Below are positions 29,308-37,940 of a stretch of 64,000 nt of DNA, in pieces. The stretch comes from Haloarchaeobius amylolyticus (lineage in GTDB: Archaea > Halobacteriota > Halobacteria > Halobacteriales > Natrialbaceae), in NCBI RefSeq assembly GCF_026616195.1, contig NZ_JANHDH010000003.1:124001-188000 (forward strand), given 5' to 3'. A program made the position numbers and the translations under genes. Position 1 is the stretch's first letter. Every line of letters begins with the position of its first letter. The notes under the pieces are model-generated. The model was given only the letters and a program-made list of their open reading frames with translations, made no database searches and was not told the DNA's origin.

Positions 29308-32300
29308 CTACCTCGTCTCGACCTGCCGCCTGAAGCCGAGTTCGTCGTCGACCTGCCAGTGCTTGTCGAAGTAGCCGGCGGCGACGCAGGCGTTCCACTT
29401 CTGGAACCGGACCGACTCGTCGAACACCATGTAGTCGGCGGCCGCGGTCTGCGTCGGCGTCCAGTCCCGTACGCGGGTCAGCTGGACACCGGCCAGCGAG
29501 GTCCCGGTCTCTATCTGGAGCAGTTTCTCGCGGTTCCGCGGGTTCGGATAGAGCAGGGAGACGGCGAGGTCTCCAGACCACGTGTCGTCCTTGATCCGGA
29601 CGGTGCCGTCGCCGACTCGGACGGGGATGCTCTGCTGGACCTGCTGGTAGACGCTGTTCGCACTCGGTCGGCCGAAGAGAATCAGGTTGTACTCGTCCAT
29701 CGTCGCCCGGTCGACTGCCGTGTCGGGGATGACGGTCGCGGGGGCCCTGGCTCGCGTGACGAGCCGCTGGGACCGGATGTTCGCGAGGTTCCGGTTCATC
29801 GCGGTCTCGGCGTCGGAGGCCTGGGTCCCGTAGACGAGTCGGTACGGTTTCTGGTGGATCTCCTTCATCGGGCCGTACTGGTCCGCGTCCTTGCCGACGC
29901 CACGGCTGGGTCGTCCCCTGCCACGATTGGCCCGGACCCCGTTACCGGAGAGGTCGACCGTGGCGTGTCCCCGGCCGGGCAGTGAGGCACTGCCGACTGG
30001 CGTGTAGACCCGGCTGTCGGCATCGACGTCCACCTCCCGGAGGACCTGCGTGTCGACCTCGAGGCGGGCGACGTTCTCGGTCTCGACGTGGATGCCGTCA
30101 CTGGAGACGGACGCGTCGACCCTCGTGGGCGCGTGGACCTGGTCCTGCTCGACGACGCGCACCCAGTGCTTCCCGTCCTCGATGCGGAGGTTCGTCGTGA
30201 AGAAGGTGAGCGATTCGGGGTAGGGGTCGTTCGTGGACGACCGGATGAACTCGAACATGTCCGGGTGGTTGACCGTGTCCTTGCCCGGGCCGATGGTCTC
30301 GTCGCTGAACTCGTTCTTGTCCCAGTAGTGGTCCGCGTTGGGGACCTCGAGGTAGGCCACGTCGGTGTCCGCTGGCGTGACCTGGTGTCGGTAGCCGACC
30401 TCGCCATCGACGTCGAGCCCCCGGTTCGCCAGCGCCCGGACGTAGCTCCGGGGTTGCATCGAGGGCACGGACGTGTCCTCGCCGCCCTGGAGGACGAATA
30501 TCGGCGTGTTGCCGTCCTCGGCGTTCTGCGTCTTCGGCATCGCGAGGTTCTTCTGGAGGGCTTTCTCCTTGAGCGCCTTCAGGCCGGGATAAGCGTGGAG
30601 TTTGTCGCGGCCCCAGACGACCGTGATGTACGTCTCGTGGTCGGTCCAGCCCGAGGAGGGCGCCAGGGCGGCGAAGCGGTCGTTGTTGGTCAGACCGATG
30701 TGCCAGGTCCCGTGACCACCCATCGAGTGCCCGGAGATGTAGACGTTCGACTCGTCGAGGTCGAACCGGTCCATGGCGACCCGGAGCGCCTCCAGGTCGT
30801 CGACGCGACCGAGGTCCTCGTGGTCGTAGTTGACCGGCCCGCGGGCGTCGGGTGCGACGACGTAGGCGTCCTCGCGCGGGATGTTCGCGCCGGCCTGGTT
30901 CCACGAGTTCACGTTCGCGCCGTGCAGCGAGAAGACGACCTCGTAGGGGCCGGTACTCGACTCGTCGTTCGCCGGCCGGCGGTAGGTGAAGTACTGGACG
31001 CTCCCGTCGATCTCCGATTCGAACGTGGTCATCCGCCGGTTCGCGTCGGCGTCGGCGACCCGGATATCGACCGTCTCGCTGTGACGCTGGTCGCCCACCT
31101 CGGCGCGGGCTGTCACGGAGAGCACGTCTCGCGAGGTCTCCAGCGTCGTGGTCGAGACGTCGTCGCCGGCCATGCTCGTCAGCGAGTCGGACATGGACTC
31201 GGCCTCCTGCCCGGTCTCGGGTGGCGTGTGCGTCATGGCCTCGCCGGTGACCTCCGACCGGGTGGTCGACCTGGTCGCGTTCGCCTTCGCCTGGTCCGGG
31301 AGTTCCCCGGGCGGGCCGCCCTGCTGGCCGTTTCCATCGCCACCGCCGTTCCCGGCCTGCGTCGATGAGCTATCGCTTCCCGCGGCGCCGGTTCCGGTCT
31401 GGATACGCGTGTTGACACGTCTCGTCTCGAAGGGGGCCAGCGGCGGGTCGATGTCGACCTGTTGTTCGACCAGGTACTCGTTGTCCGGGGCGACGGTCAG
31501 CGTCGCCTCGTCGACGGGTTCTCCCGTCGTGTTCGTCACGCGAACCGACGCCGGGAGGTCGGTCTCCTCACCCACGCGCAGGTCCGGGACGATGATGTTC
31601 TGTGGGATGCCGCGGAACGTGGCCGGGCCGTTCACCTCGACGGGCGCTTCGGGCGGCCTGAACGTCAGGGTGACCGACCCGATGAACCCGTATATCAGGA
31701 GCGAACTCGCCAGCAGGTAGTTCGTCCCGTCCTGCAGGACGACGCCGGCCGGACTCTCCTCGTGGCGGTGACCGTTGAGCCAGACCGTCGCGTCGGTCTC
31801 CAGCACCGCCCGCTTCGGCCCGTCGACCTCGAAGGTGGTGAAGGCGTACCCCTTGCCGTAGAGTGACCCCCCGATGCCGAACCAGTCCTGGAAGTCGTCG
31901 AACAGGCCGCCGGCGCCACCGCCGAAGTCGGTCAGTGGCGTGAGGTTCCCACCGGTCGGGTCGATCTCCGACCTTGCCTGCGGGAAGCCGACGGTCCCTC
32001 CCGAGGCCTGCACCTGCTCCCAGCGGACCTCGCTCCCGCCCGCGAACGCCGACTGCAACTCGCCGTCCAGCGAGGGCGTCGATTCACCAGTCGAGAAGTC
32101 GTCCGCGCCGCCGCGTGGGAACAGCGACCCCACGGAGGTATCCCGTCGCTGGTACTGGAACGGTGCGATGGTGTACCAGTCCTGTGGTGTGAACGACTCC
32201 GTGATGGTGTCGACCGTCCCCTCGATGGGTGTCCGGTCTGTCTGCCGCAACTGGTCTGCCGCCCCCGCGTCGGTCGCACCGGCGAACAGCGCCGCGCCCC

Positions 32301-32382
32301 CGGCCGCCTTCGCGAAGTCTCGTCTCGAGATGTCGATACTCTCTCTGTCTGCCGTCGTGGATCGTGGGTCGTCGGAACTCAT
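29308..32382 (-). CDS. Large secreted alpha/beta-hydrolase (esterase/peptidase-like) with Tat signal
   Basis: The product is 1024 residues. SRRDFAKAAGGAALFAG (twin Arg at 20-21) is a Tat signal without a lipobox, so the protein is probably released. N-terminal beta domains (about 60-380) resemble CARDB-like sandwiches. A linker rich in Gly, Gln and Ser follows. The catalytic domain (about 470-720) holds GHSMGGHG (nucleophile Ser about residue 551) and a later NADHYW (His near 680), as in PHB-depolymerase and prolyl-oligopeptidase-like enzymes. The C-terminal 300 residues are a further beta-rich module. The start ATG 32382 fits the signal. Substrate unknown. Confidence 0.83.
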   Translation of the reverse strand: MSSDDPRSTTADRESIDISRRDFAKAAGGAALFAGATDAGAADQLRQTDRTPIEGTVDTITESFTPQDWYTIAPFQYQRRDTSVGSLFPRGGADDFSTGESTPSLDGELQSAFAGGSEVRWEQVQASGGTVGFPQARSEIDPTGGNLTPLTDFGGGAGGLFDDFQDWFGIGGSLYGKGYAFTTFEVDGPKRAVLETDATVWLNGHRHEESPAGVVLQDGTNYLLASSLLIYGFIGSVTLTFRPPEAPVEVNGPATFRGIPQNIIVPDLRVGEETDLPASVRVTNTTGEPVDEATLTVAPDNEYLVEQQVDIDPPLAPFETRRVNTRIQTGTGAAGSDSSSTQAGNGGGDGNGQQGGPPGELPDQAKANATRSTTRSEVTGEAMTHTPPETGQEAESMSDSLTSMAGDDVSTTTLETSRDVLSVTARAEVGDQRHSETVDIRVADADANRRMTTFESEIDGSVQYFTYRRPANDESSTGPYEVVFSLHGANVNSWNQAGANIPREDAYVVAPDARGPVNYDHEDLGRVDDLEALRVAMDRFDLDESNVYISGHSMGGHGTWHIGLTNNDRFAALAPSSGWTDHETYITVVWGRDKLHAYPGLKALKEKALQKNLAMPKTQNAEDGNTPIFVLQGGEDTSVPSMQPRSYVRALANRGLDVDGEVGYRHQVTPADTDVAYLEVPNADHYWDKNEFSDETIGPGKDTVNHPDMFEFIRSSTNDPYPESLTFFTTNLRIEDGKHWVRVVEQDQVHAPTRVDASVSSDGIHVETENVARLEVDTQVLREVDVDADSRVYTPVGSASLPGRGHATVDLSGNGVRANRGRGRPSRGVGKDADQYGPMKEIHQKPYRLVYGTQASDAETAMNRNLANIRSQRLVTRARAPATVIPDTAVDRATMDEYNLILFGRPSANSVYQQVQQSIPVRVGDGTVRIKDDTWSGDLAVSLLYPNPRNREKLLQIETGTSLAGVQLTRVRDWTPTQTAAADYMVFDESVRFQKWNACVAAGYFDKHWQVDDELGFRRQVETR

Positions 32383-32587
32383 ACGTACCGTCGCCGGCAA
32401 TCGATGATGATTGCCAAGCGTTGGCACGTGTCATGGTGGCCATAAATTACTCATGCAGTATCAATAATGGCTGACAGTCGGTGGTTCTCTCACGGGTGTC
32501 GAAGGCCGTCTGGCTGCGATAACCGCATCAAAGATTATGTAGTTTGGCCGGGGGACTTCGGTCACCCAGCGCGAACGCCAGTATACC

Positions 32588-34897: not shown

Positions 34898-35122
34898 CGG
34901 CGGGGGCTCTGGCCGAACGCTTCTCGTCCACAGCCGGTCCGGCAGCGTGACCCGCACTTCGTTCCACACCACTCTCCTCTGGTTGAATTACTATCTACAA
35001 TAACCACTGGTGTTGAACGGTCTCGCCGAGGTATTTCCCGGAATCCGACCGACAAGTTAGTTTACTAAACCAGATTGGCTTTTTCTCACACTTTCGTTGT
35101 GCTATTTAGAACTAATACAACC

Positions 35123-35130
35123 TTTTATTA
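35123..35130 (+). promoter_or_regulatory. TATA box of the secreted nuclease gene (leaderless)
   Basis: TTTTATTA lies 24-31 nt before the ATG at 35154, so transcript and coding start would nearly coincide. Confidence 0.5.
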
Positions 35131-35153
35131 AGCATGCGTCCGGCCAGCATCGT

Positions 35154-37940
35154 ATGCGACGACGTGACTTCCTCACATCGCTCACTGTCGCGGCGGCGGG
35201 CACAGCACTCGGTACCTCGGCGACCTCTGCGGCGCGAGCTGCCACGGGCACCATCGACTCGCTGGAGTTCGACTCCACGGCGAGCCTCCTCGATTCCTCC
35301 GGGAACGTCCTGACCGACGACTCGCTCGTCGCGGTGAAGGCGGAGACCTCCGCGGTCAACGACGACGCCGACGGGAACGGCGACGCGGTCGCGTACCCCT
35401 ACGACACGGACATCCCGCTCGTGGCGGTCGACGAGTCGAGCGCGGGCACGGTCGTCGGCTTCGGGGCGACGCTCGTCTCCGACGACGCCAACTTCCGGAG
35501 CGATAACGAGGAGTTCGTCCTCAACGTCTTCGACGCCTACCTCGGCGGTTCGGGCACTATCCTCTACGACGAGGGCCACGACGCCTACCACACGCTGACG
35601 GACTTCTCGAACATGGCGAACTACGCCGAGACCCAGCAGGACTACGCGGTCTCGGCCACCTCGGACATCTCCGCCGACCTCGCCGGGGCCGACGCGGTCT
35701 GGCTCACCGGGCCGTCCACGGCCTACACCAGCACGGAGAAGCAGGACCTCGCGGACTTCGTGGCGGGCGGCGGTGACGTCTTCATCTTCGACCGCGCGGA
35801 CTACTCGAACTACGACGAGACCGCGAACCTGAACGACATCGCGAGCGCCCTCTCGCTCTCGTTCCGGTTCAACGACGACCAGGTCACCGACGACACGAAC
35901 AACGGCGGCGTCTACTACAAGCCGACGACCACCCGGTTCGACACCACGTTCGACTTCTTCGCGGACCGACCTGGCATGGAGATCGACCCGAACGCGACCC
36001 ACACGGTCGACGTGGTCGGCGTCAGCGACGGGGACACCGCGACTGTCCGGTTCGACTCCGGGCGCGAGGAGAACGTCCGCATCCTCGGGATGGACACGCC
36101 CGAGAAGGAGCAGTACCAGCAGTACGAGCGCACCCAGGAGTGGGAGGGCATCGAGTCGATGACCTACCTCGCGGACTGGGGTGCGAACGCGACGACGTGG
36201 GGCGAGAACGAACTCGGCGGGAAGACCATCGACCTCTCGTTCGACGACAACGAACCCGGCATCTTCGACCAGTACGACCGTCTGCTCGGGTACATCCACT
36301 ACGACGCGACCGGCGATGGCACCCGCGACGACTTCTACAACCTGCGGACGGTCCAGAACGGGTACGCCCGGGTCTACGCTTCCGGCTTCTCGAACTACGA
36401 GACCTTCTACGACGCCGAGGTCACGGCCCAGCAGAACGGCACGAACCTCTGGTCCCAGAGCGACCCCTCGGCGACCGACCCCATCCGGAACCGCACCGTC
36501 GACGACCAGTTCTTCCCCGACGCGGCCTCGGTACGGACGAGCTCGGGCGCCATCAGCCAGTCCCGGGTCCCGGTCCTCGCGGAGTCCGAGGCCACCCAGA
36601 CCGACAGCCCGAGCGTCTCCTACACCGACATCCCCCTCGTCGGCGTCGACGAGGCCGCCAACGTCGCGATGGTCGGCTCGCCGTTCATCGACGAGTCCTT
36701 CGAACAGGCCGAGGGCTACGCGGTCGACACCTCGACCTACGAGAACTTCACCTTCCTGACGAACCTGCTCGACTGGCTCTCGGACAGTAGTGGGAAGGTC
36801 GTCATCGACGGCGGCCACGGCCAGTTCAGCGCGGACTACGCCCTCTCCAGCGAGGACGTGGCGTACTACCAGCGCTACCTCGAAGGCGTCGGCATCGACT
36901 TCGACCAGGTGAACAACCTGACCTCGGACAACCTCTCGAACGCCCGTGCGCTCGTCGTCACCTCGCCTGCCGACTCCTTCACGACGAGCGAGACCGACGC
37001 TGTCTCGCAGTTCGTCGCCGACGGCGGCTCTGTCGTCCTCGTCGGCGCGGCCAGTGCGACGAGCACCGCCCGGTCGAACCTCAACACGCTCGCGGCCGAC
37101 CTCGGCAGCGACCTGCGCCTGAACGACGGGCAGGTCGAGGACGCGACGAACAACGTCAATTCGGACGCGGCCGTCCCGGTCAGTACCCGATTCGACACCT
37201 CCTTCCCGCTGTTCTCCGCGTTCGACGGGAGCAACACCGGCGGGTCGGGCACCCTCGAACTCGTCAAGGTCCACGCCGACGCCGAGGGCACCGAGTCCGA
37301 GAACCTCAACGACGAGTACGTCGTCTTCGAGAACACCGGCTCCGGGTCGATGGAGCTGACGAACTACGTGGTCGAGGACGCCGCCGGCAAGAGCTACACC
37401 GTCCCCGAGTTCAGCCTCGACGCTGGCGCACGCGTCACGCTCCACACCGGGAGTGGCACCGACTCCGCGACCGACCTCTACTGGAACCGCAGCTCCGCGG
37501 TCTGGAACAACTCCGGCGACACCGTCATCGTCACCGACGACTCGGGTACCGAGGTCATCAACCGCACCTACAGCGGCGACGGCTTCGACGAGACCGACGA
37601 CGGCAGCACCAGTGACAGCATCGTCGTCAAGAACGTCCACGAGGACGCCGAGGGGACCGACTCGGAGAACCTCAACGACGAGTACGTCGTCTTCGAGAAC
37701 ACCGGCAGTTCGGCGGTCGACATGACCGACTACGTCTGCGAGGACGAGGCGGCCCACGACTACGTCTTCCCGTCGTTCACCCTCGACGCGGGCGCGACCG
37801 TCACGCTGCACACCGGGAGTGGGACGGACACCAGTACCGACCTCTACTGGGGGTCAGGCTCCAGCATCTGGAACAACGCCGGGGACACGGTCTACCTGTT
37901 CGACGCGAGCGGGAACACGGTGCTGACCCACTCGTACTGA
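35154..37940 (+). CDS. Secreted thermonuclease (SNase-like) with two lamin-tail domains and DUF4350-like domains
   Basis: The product is 928 residues. MRRRDFLTSLTVAAAG is a Tat signal without lipobox. A DUF4350/GATase-like domain (about 80-270) is followed by a staphylococcal-nuclease domain (about 282-440). Its active-site series is present: SDGDT, NVRILGMDTPE (Arg, Asp, Thr and Glu of the family, about 307-317) and DQYDRLLGY (Arg about 376). A second DUF4350-like domain (about 483-690) precedes two tandem lamin-tail domains (about 701-809 and 822-928), each with LNDEYVVFENTG and VTLHTGSGTD. Expected role: extracellular nucleic-acid degradation for nutrient use or matrix turnover, with lamin-tail domains as binding modules. 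The start is fixed by the Tat signal. Confidence 0.9.
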   Translation: MRRRDFLTSLTVAAAGTALGTSATSAARAATGTIDSLEFDSTASLLDSSGNVLTDDSLVAVKAETSAVNDDADGNGDAVAYPYDTDIPLVAVDESSAGTVVGFGATLVSDDANFRSDNEEFVLNVFDAYLGGSGTILYDEGHDAYHTLTDFSNMANYAETQQDYAVSATSDISADLAGADAVWLTGPSTAYTSTEKQDLADFVAGGGDVFIFDRADYSNYDETANLNDIASALSLSFRFNDDQVTDDTNNGGVYYKPTTTRFDTTFDFFADRPGMEIDPNATHTVDVVGVSDGDTATVRFDSGREENVRILGMDTPEKEQYQQYERTQEWEGIESMTYLADWGANATTWGENELGGKTIDLSFDDNEPGIFDQYDRLLGYIHYDATGDGTRDDFYNLRTVQNGYARVYASGFSNYETFYDAEVTAQQNGTNLWSQSDPSATDPIRNRTVDDQFFPDAASVRTSSGAISQSRVPVLAESEATQTDSPSVSYTDIPLVGVDEAANVAMVGSPFIDESFEQAEGYAVDTSTYENFTFLTNLLDWLSDSSGKVVIDGGHGQFSADYALSSEDVAYYQRYLEGVGIDFDQVNNLTSDNLSNARALVVTSPADSFTTSETDAVSQFVADGGSVVLVGAASATSTARSNLNTLAADLGSDLRLNDGQVEDATNNVNSDAAVPVSTRFDTSFPLFSAFDGSNTGGSGTLELVKVHADAEGTESENLNDEYVVFENTGSGSMELTNYVVEDAAGKSYTVPEFSLDAGARVTLHTGSGTDSATDLYWNRSSAVWNNSGDTVIVTDDSGTEVINRTYSGDGFDETDDGSTSDSIVVKNVHEDAEGTDSENLNDEYVVFENTGSSAVDMTDYVCEDEAAHDYVFPSFTLDAGATVTLHTGSGTDTSTDLYWGSGSSIWNNAGDTVYLFDASGNTVLTHSY

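Follow-up and report, generated by a model that had tools for sequence, protein, structure and literature searches.

The window, meaning the whole stretch of DNA analysed here, comprises 64,000 nucleotides of the haloarchaeon Haloarchaeobius amylolyticus and was taken from a 753,550-base contig of its 4.6-Mb genome. On the plus strand of the window, positions 35154-37937 encode a protein of 928 amino acids (aa), with an ATG at 35154 and, as read from the translation, a stop codon at 37938-37940. Judged by its sequence, the product is very probably an active, exported DNA- or RNA-cutting enzyme of salt-loving archaea. Pfam matches and the translation give the domain order: a twin-arginine (Tat)-type signal, a first GIFT domain (GIFT1), a staphylococcal nuclease (SNase) domain, a second GIFT domain (GIFT2) and two lamin-tail domains (LTD1 and LTD2). 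The limits of GIFT1, SNase and GIFT2 were set by us (Table 1).

All five Pfam families involved exceed Pfam's own cut-offs: LTD with an E-value of 3.5e-39 for two copies, SNase with 4.6e-13 over residues 307-435 and, in the GATase-like part, ABC_transp_aux with 2.6e-13, IFT52_GIFT with 1.9e-10 and DUF4350 with 9.1e-10. The first-pass annotation had placed a gene at 35154-37940 and described its product as one Tat-exported protein that combines an SNase with two GATase/DUF4350-like and two C-terminal lamin-tail domains. Coordinates, strand and components all hold, and the twin-arginine start MRRRDFL is seen in the sequence; the layout is refined, with the SNase domain lying between the two GATase-like domains.

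Table 1 Positions of the nuclease gene, its parts and the nearby lamin-tail gene in the window
Feature	Position	Strand	Basis
Exported multidomain nuclease (P0001), 928 aa, predicted	35154..37937	+	Translation, Pfam, relatives' alignment
Tat-type signal peptide MRRRDFL...SAARAA, without lipobox cysteine	35154..35243	+	Read in translation
GIFT/DUF4350-like domain 1, residues 32-276, with D139xxH142	35247..35981	+	Pfam and motif pattern
SNase domain, residues 280-440	35991..36473	+	Pfam, PDB sequence alignment, model fold match, residue conservation
Loop after E317 to start of helix 336-354, uninterrupted here; GIFT insertion site of relatives	36105..36161	+	Paralog matches break at query 334/336; helix from model
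GIFT/DUF4350-like domain 2, residues 445-698, with D552GGHGQF558	36486..37247	+	Pfam and motif pattern
Lamin-tail domain 1	37245..37574	+	PF00932, 72.4 bits
Lamin-tail domain 2, C-terminus	37608..37937	+	PF00932, 85.7 bits
Stand-alone lamin-tail protein, open frame 124 aa	40205..40567	-	Pfam LTD, 4.1e-20

The nuclease was aligned with 23 of 29 fetched relatives at 53-90% identity; the other six, which are longer or have a mis-set start, were omitted. Residues M1, R3, R4 and F6 of the signal are invariant across the resulting 24 rows, whose starts were selected partly by that motif. By regular expression on uncurated starts, 70 of 94 open reading frames (ORFs) of the family carry a twin-arginine motif without a lipobox, two carry both and 22 neither. 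The single cysteine of the mature part is located in LTD2 and none lies in or near the signal peptide, so the nuclease lacks the lipobox of the haloarchaeal Hvo_1477 group discussed below. A net charge of -126 is predicted for the mature protein (898 residues), with -20 for SNase and -14 and -18 for the LTDs.

A long minus-strand ORF that overlaps the gene (35112-37811) probably reflects the GC-rich DNA and would be an antisense shadow. Scans for bacterial-type promoters and terminators, with models unsuited to archaea, found 0 and 2, compared with 0.5 and 2.3 in shuffles.

Nuclease fold and active site

The SNase domain scores 50 bits against the PF00565 cut-off of 21. An AlphaFold model of the nuclease, built from the 24-row alignment, reached a mean predicted local distance difference test (pLDDT) value of 78.5 and a predicted template modelling (pTM) score of 0.48, which makes the placement of domains relative to each other unreliable. 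The modelled SNase superposes on staphylococcal nuclease 2f0t with a Z score of 19.0 over 131 residues at 1.9 Å, and Foldseek matches the model to staphylococcal nuclease with an E-value of 9.9e-10. Sequence identity to staphylococcal nuclease over aligned residues is 24-27%. The full-model matches listed by Foldseek and VIA-align are all staphylococcal nuclease and so concern the SNase fold only. In the predicted model, this domain has the OB-fold structure of these nucleases. The likeness to staphylococcal nuclease (thermonuclease) thus lies in the predicted fold and the active-site residues; that enzyme is a single nuclease domain from a non-halophilic source.

A sequence alignment with PDB chains pairs the DGDT motif, the R...DTPE motif and a later arginine. 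We take the active-site equivalents to be D19/D21/R35/D40/T41/E43/R87 in S. aureus numbering. D292, D294, R309, D314, E317 and R376, corresponding to D19, D21, R35, D40, E43 and R87, are identical in all 93 non-identical SNase domains of a set that was gathered by profile, includes the Hvo_1477-like paralog and may miss very degenerate copies. At the position of T315, equivalent to T41, 88 of these domains have T, four have S and one has A. Because six residues are identical in 93/93 domains, the active site appears to be under selection; the catalytic positions that the first-pass annotation had found wherever it could check are all there. The NCBIfam model 'calcium-activated nuclease EcnA' (NF047969) matches at 3.8e-25 with 88.6 bits, below its 180-bit equivalog cut-off, and by this sequence model the nuclease is a relative of EcnA and not an equivalog.

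GIFT domains and their insertion into the nuclease loop

The window nuclease exceeds the Pfam cut-offs of the GIFT/DUF4350/GldG families, but its GIFT domains lack the cysteine nucleophile of GATase-type enzymes. Both copies are free of cysteine altogether, and any cysteine occurs in 49 of 193 GIFT domains of the nuclease family. A GATase-type enzymatic role is not supported, as the nucleophile is missing from both copies here. The pattern DxxHx[QAGSNE] is found in 101 of 104 GIFT1-type and 80 of 89 GIFT2-type domains, compared with 11% of shuffled domains; this conserved DxxH motif suggests a putative binding site, and other chemistry may proceed through it. To our knowledge, the described members of the GIFT, DUF4350 and GldG (ABC_transp_aux) families include no nuclease.

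The genome holds three SNase proteins, one of which is a GIFT-interrupted paralog on contig 1 (133152-135899, minus strand; a 982-aa open frame, also L011:8030-10975). Its order is GIFT, first part of SNase, GIFT, second part of SNase, GIFT, followed by a lysine/arginine-rich end without LTD. In this paralog and some relatives, the inserted GIFT domain separates the active-site loop (after the E43 equivalent) from the helix that follows. The insert shares 59% identity with the paralog's own N-terminal GIFT domain and 36% with the C-terminal one, and this closer likeness to the N-terminal copy indicates an internal duplication. A model of the paralog's SNase segment (12 rows, mean pLDDT 74.1, pTM 0.56) matches staphylococcal nuclease with a Z score of 16.9 over 131 residues at 2.3 Å, drawing on residues 4-410 around the insert; the same segment weakly matches chains 5fms/5fmr of the IFT52 N-terminal domain (E 0.02-0.05).

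On a quick tree of 91 rows, assessed by the Shimodaira-Hasegawa-like approximate likelihood ratio test (SH-aLRT) alone and with 28 of its 88 inner branches left open, GIFT inserts occur in 14 rows: one in 12 rows, and two in L098 and L102. In these last two, the inserts form a tandem pair (L098:6908-11188 and L102:6860-10957). The inserted state changes twice on this tree. Since an approximately unbiased (AU) test does not reject a single clade of insert-bearing rows (p 0.64; the grouped tree has the higher likelihood), one origin of the insert is possible.

Lamin-tail domains and fimbrial-like heads

Both LTDs lie above the PF00932 cut-off of 34.3 bits (scores in Table 1). At least one LTD within the same ORF is present in 50 of the 91 tree rows, copy numbers range from 0 to 2 in the family, and the LTD state changes at least six times on the tree after correction for the broken gene of L117 (seven before). 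Because they were gained or lost repeatedly among relatives, the LTDs are best regarded as accessory and not essential to catalysis. Alternative tails occur, for example fibronectin-type III-like ones in L058 and L096. Nuclease genes of L080, L083, L111 and L117 appear to be broken by a frame change in the assemblies.

In the genome, five proteins carry six LTD copies that exceed the Pfam cut-off: two with SNase, two with a metallo-beta-lactamase (MBL) domain and the stand-alone one; one further match is weak. The second SNase protein among them (G000:C3:689833-690639) is a 335-aa paralog of Hvo_1477 type, with lipobox, SNase and LTD. The two MBL + LTD proteins also have a lipobox and resemble the haloarchaeal ComA type by Pfam (Hlac_1867 type); they are like the window nuclease in their LTDs, which are 62-65% identical to its own, and unlike it in the lipobox and in the MBL domain that takes the place of SNase. 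Identities to the LTDs of the Hvo_1477-type and stand-alone proteins are 45-49% and 41-45%, respectively. These values suggest, at the level of sequence, an exchange of LTDs between catalytic partners. The LTDs would be interchangeable attachment modules for DNA, matrix or cell surface, common to other exported hydrolases of the genome.

As to what is attached, anchor and DNA holder are near-equal rivals. A tentative and somewhat doubtful proposal is that the LTDs, perhaps together with the GIFT domains, bind DNA and thereby allow the nuclease to work at molar salt. It draws on a sequence set in which C-terminal DNase-LTD fusions came only from halophilic or halotolerant species, and for which extra DNA-binding domains were proposed to offset salt (PMC4486849). 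In Shewanella, loss of the LTD leaves DNA clearing by ExeM on plates intact and slows the purified enzyme in a membrane-free in vitro assay (PMC6085458), and in H. amylolyticus the LTD sequence is retained across differing catalytic partners. However, the LTDs of the window nuclease are strongly acidic (-14 and -18), and the presence of an LTD in just 50/91 rows, with its repeated changes, argues that such a nuclease can work in brine without it.

Anchoring of the enzyme by its LTDs to the cell surface or S-layer, which would make it a surface nuclease, is quite possible without being the expected outcome. Prokaryotic LTDs have been suggested to direct proteins to the membrane (Mans et al. 2004 as cited in PMC6085458; similarly PMC5118699), and a nuclease without a lipobox could use another anchor. 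Hvo_1477-type proteins, on the other hand, combine a predicted lipid anchor with an LTD (PMC3929857), so that they would seem to need no LTD for anchoring.

A scan of named genomes, seeded by two GIFT peptide patterns, confirmed 95 stretches, of which 75 loci were kept; 73 have haloarchaeal titles, and L098 and L100 are titled 'uncultured archaeon A07HR60'. By profile, the nuclease bears a fimbrial-subunit-like N-terminal head in 12 of these 75 loci (L068, L069, L070, L074, L078, L080, L088, L091, L093, L103, L117 and L119), seven of them titled Halorubrum. The profile was made from 18 N-terminal stretches (the 12 nucleases and six upstream partners); over all ORFs of the loci it found only one more, downstream in L078. 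Eleven of the head-bearing nucleases fall into one starred clade of 13 rows, in which the remaining two, L100 and L109, have no head by profile; L078 lies elsewhere. Pfam DUF1102 matches all seven head nucleases scanned (E up to 0.1), five over the cut-off and L074 and L068 below it, as well as the one upstream partner scanned. The NCBIfam TafE fimbrial adapter family scores 37.4 bits for L074 and 62 bits for L068, well below its cut-off of 155. In the L074 head, residues 1-111, a span that takes in the signal peptide, match PDB 9p0a (named Pilin) at 3e-11.

Taken at sequence level, the head suggests that the nuclease is displayed on surface fibres. In L074 (6446-10557), L080, L088, L091, L103 and L117, all titled Halorubrum, the gene directly upstream of the nuclease encodes a protein with a similar head plus GIFT. 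In all six, its stop and the likely nuclease start overlap as ATGA, which suggests coupled translation. No full fimbrial operon was seen near the head-bearing nuclease loci. Haloarchaea have Tat-fimbriae ('tafi') with the core component TafA (PMC12687288). In the H. amylolyticus genome, a TafE/TafA-like cluster (L135, L136 and L138-L140, all below the NCBIfam cut-offs) was noticed on contig 1 at about 1459660-1461742.

Function, neighbourhood and spread

The closest studied haloarchaeal protein that we found is Hvo_1477, a relative of YokF/Nuc and a 327-aa predicted lipoprotein with lipobox, SNase and LTD, whose deletion impairs the growth of Haloferax volcanii on extracellular DNA; in 2014 it was called the first gene for processing or uptake of extracellular DNA identified in an archaeon (PMC3929857). 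Like the window nuclease, whose export is predicted by its signal motif, it is an exported haloarchaeal protein that combines SNase with a C-terminal LTD. In contrast, Hvo_1477 is a predicted lipoprotein for which no GIFT or DUF4350 domain is listed (PMC3929857, Table 5), whereas the window nuclease has a GIFT domain on either side of the SNase and no lipobox; the short, ~330-aa SNase-LTD architecture of the Hvo_1477 group is not that of the window nuclease. An MBL + LTD protein was reported to be more abundant in biofilms and linked to DNA metabolism (PMC5118699). Given this literature and Hvo_1477, the union of nuclease and LTD is of a known kind. A description of SNase with GIFT/DUF4350, flanking or nested, was not found in the open-licence literature; a literature search for DUF4350 with nuclease, which did not extend to the names 'GIFT' and 'ABC_transp_aux', gave nothing. 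New here are the GIFT domain inserted in the SNase loop, the fimbrial-like heads and the ATGA-overlapping partner gene.

From the signal motif, the domain order, the predicted SNase fold and the invariant active-site residues computed here, we consider it probable that the gene encodes an exported, calcium-dependent nuclease that degrades extracellular DNA, a relative of Hvo_1477 with added domains. After Tat export, a phosphodiesterase of staphylococcal nuclease type would cut extracellular DNA and probably also RNA, its activity and Ca2+ dependence being expected by analogy with the family. Because there is no lipobox, unlike in the Hvo_1477-type paralog, the enzyme would carry no lipid anchor after leaving the cell. 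Its role may be phosphate or nucleotide scavenging, or DNA turnover in the biofilm matrix, with presumably non-enzymatic GIFT domains that hold the substrate or influence how it reaches the active site. By analogy with the deletion phenotype of Hvo_1477 (PMC3929857), the role in using extracellular DNA proposed in the first-pass annotation is likely.

Several points weigh against this assignment. The LTDs may contribute little to activity, as the bacterial ExeM LTD is dispensable on plates (PMC6085458). By Pfam, the neighbours tested are a GH13 glucosidase, a flavin mononucleotide (FMN) dehydrogenase and a serine hydrolase, not DNA-uptake genes. No conserved operon partner was found among the 20 largest neighbour clusters (22 of 75 loci; ORFs of at least 170 aa), which are confined to Haladaptatus, Halorussus, or Halegenticoccus plus Halogranum. 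The FMN dehydrogenase lies near the nuclease in four of 85 loci, representing three genomes, as L045 and L122 cover one and the same region. Finally, the strong acidity (net -126) does not by itself favour DNA binding; haloarchaeal proteins are acidic in general.

Secreted nucleases can also serve as weapons or in defence. A non-nutritional role of this kind, against competing cells or virus DNA, is very improbable here. Nothing in the sequence excludes it, but the four neighbouring ORFs scanned contain no immunity-type gene or delivery module (Pfam; the padloc defence library was not searched), and none of the 20 largest clusters of the 22 loci is a neighbour common to distant genera.

A nuclease degrading extracellular DNA for nutrition or matrix turnover remains our preferred reading, and a more elaborate version of it can be formulated, which we regard as speculative and unlikely to hold as a whole. 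In this nuclease family, a catalytically silent GIFT pair would bracket the SNase and take over from electrostatic DNA contacts, which fail in molar salt, one or two extra GIFT domains in the loop would act as a lid or clamp, and LTD tails would serve for matrix or surface. In a largely Halorubrum group, the fimbrial-like head would display the nuclease on fibres, with the overlapping gene of six Halorubrum loci supplying a second fimbrial-like GIFT protein. Near-saturated brine screens charge contacts, and how a strongly negative nuclease can hold on to DNA under such conditions is a practical question still to be answered. It can be tested domain by domain, because natural variants with 0-2 LTDs and 0, 1 or 2 GIFT inserts share the same active site.

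The first-pass annotation had also noticed a stand-alone LTD gene nearby and proposed that it could form an extracellular DNA-using unit with the nuclease. The gene does lie 2.26 kb downstream, on the minus strand. Its product of ~120 aa, however, starts almost at the LTD and leaves no room for a signal peptide, and a separate LTD ORF occurs near the nuclease in only one of the 75 named loci (L106; flanks up to 7 kb), the other two LTD hits (L080 and L117) being frame-changed parts of the nuclease itself. A functional pair was rejected on these two grounds, the missing signal-peptide room and the unconserved neighbourhood, and the stand-alone LTD protein probably stands outside the nuclease system. 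In the sister genome G356 (90% identity), seven of 11 queried ORFs are kept in order, including the nuclease, the FMN dehydrogenase, GH13 and the stand-alone LTD gene; since so many ORFs share the same order there, retention of the LTD gene says little. On the other side, 2.7 kb upstream of the nuclease, a second large twin-arginine protein with a serine-hydrolase (S9/esterase) domain is encoded on the minus strand (29308-32427).

Within the order, 214 of 392 genomes match some part of the nuclease at 1e-30, a count raised by hits to the LTD or the SNase alone. At 1e-40, the SNase + GIFT2 core is matched in 112 of the 392 genomes, spread over 41 of 95 genera, and in 96 of the 345 good-quality genomes; the 112 include G121 and G133, whose listed match spans GIFT2 only. 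The core of this larger nuclease type, the second after Hvo_1477, is thus a common arrangement in the order. A phylum-wide draw recovered the core in 11 of 294 genomes, all 11 from the same order or nearer; SNase-only, LTD-only and short SNase-LTD frames occur also outside the order. Haloarchaeal plasmids match the nuclease as well; in three of 171 plasmid records the match extends over at least 80% of the query. Part of the nuclease is also matched by 91 Streptomyces plasmid records.

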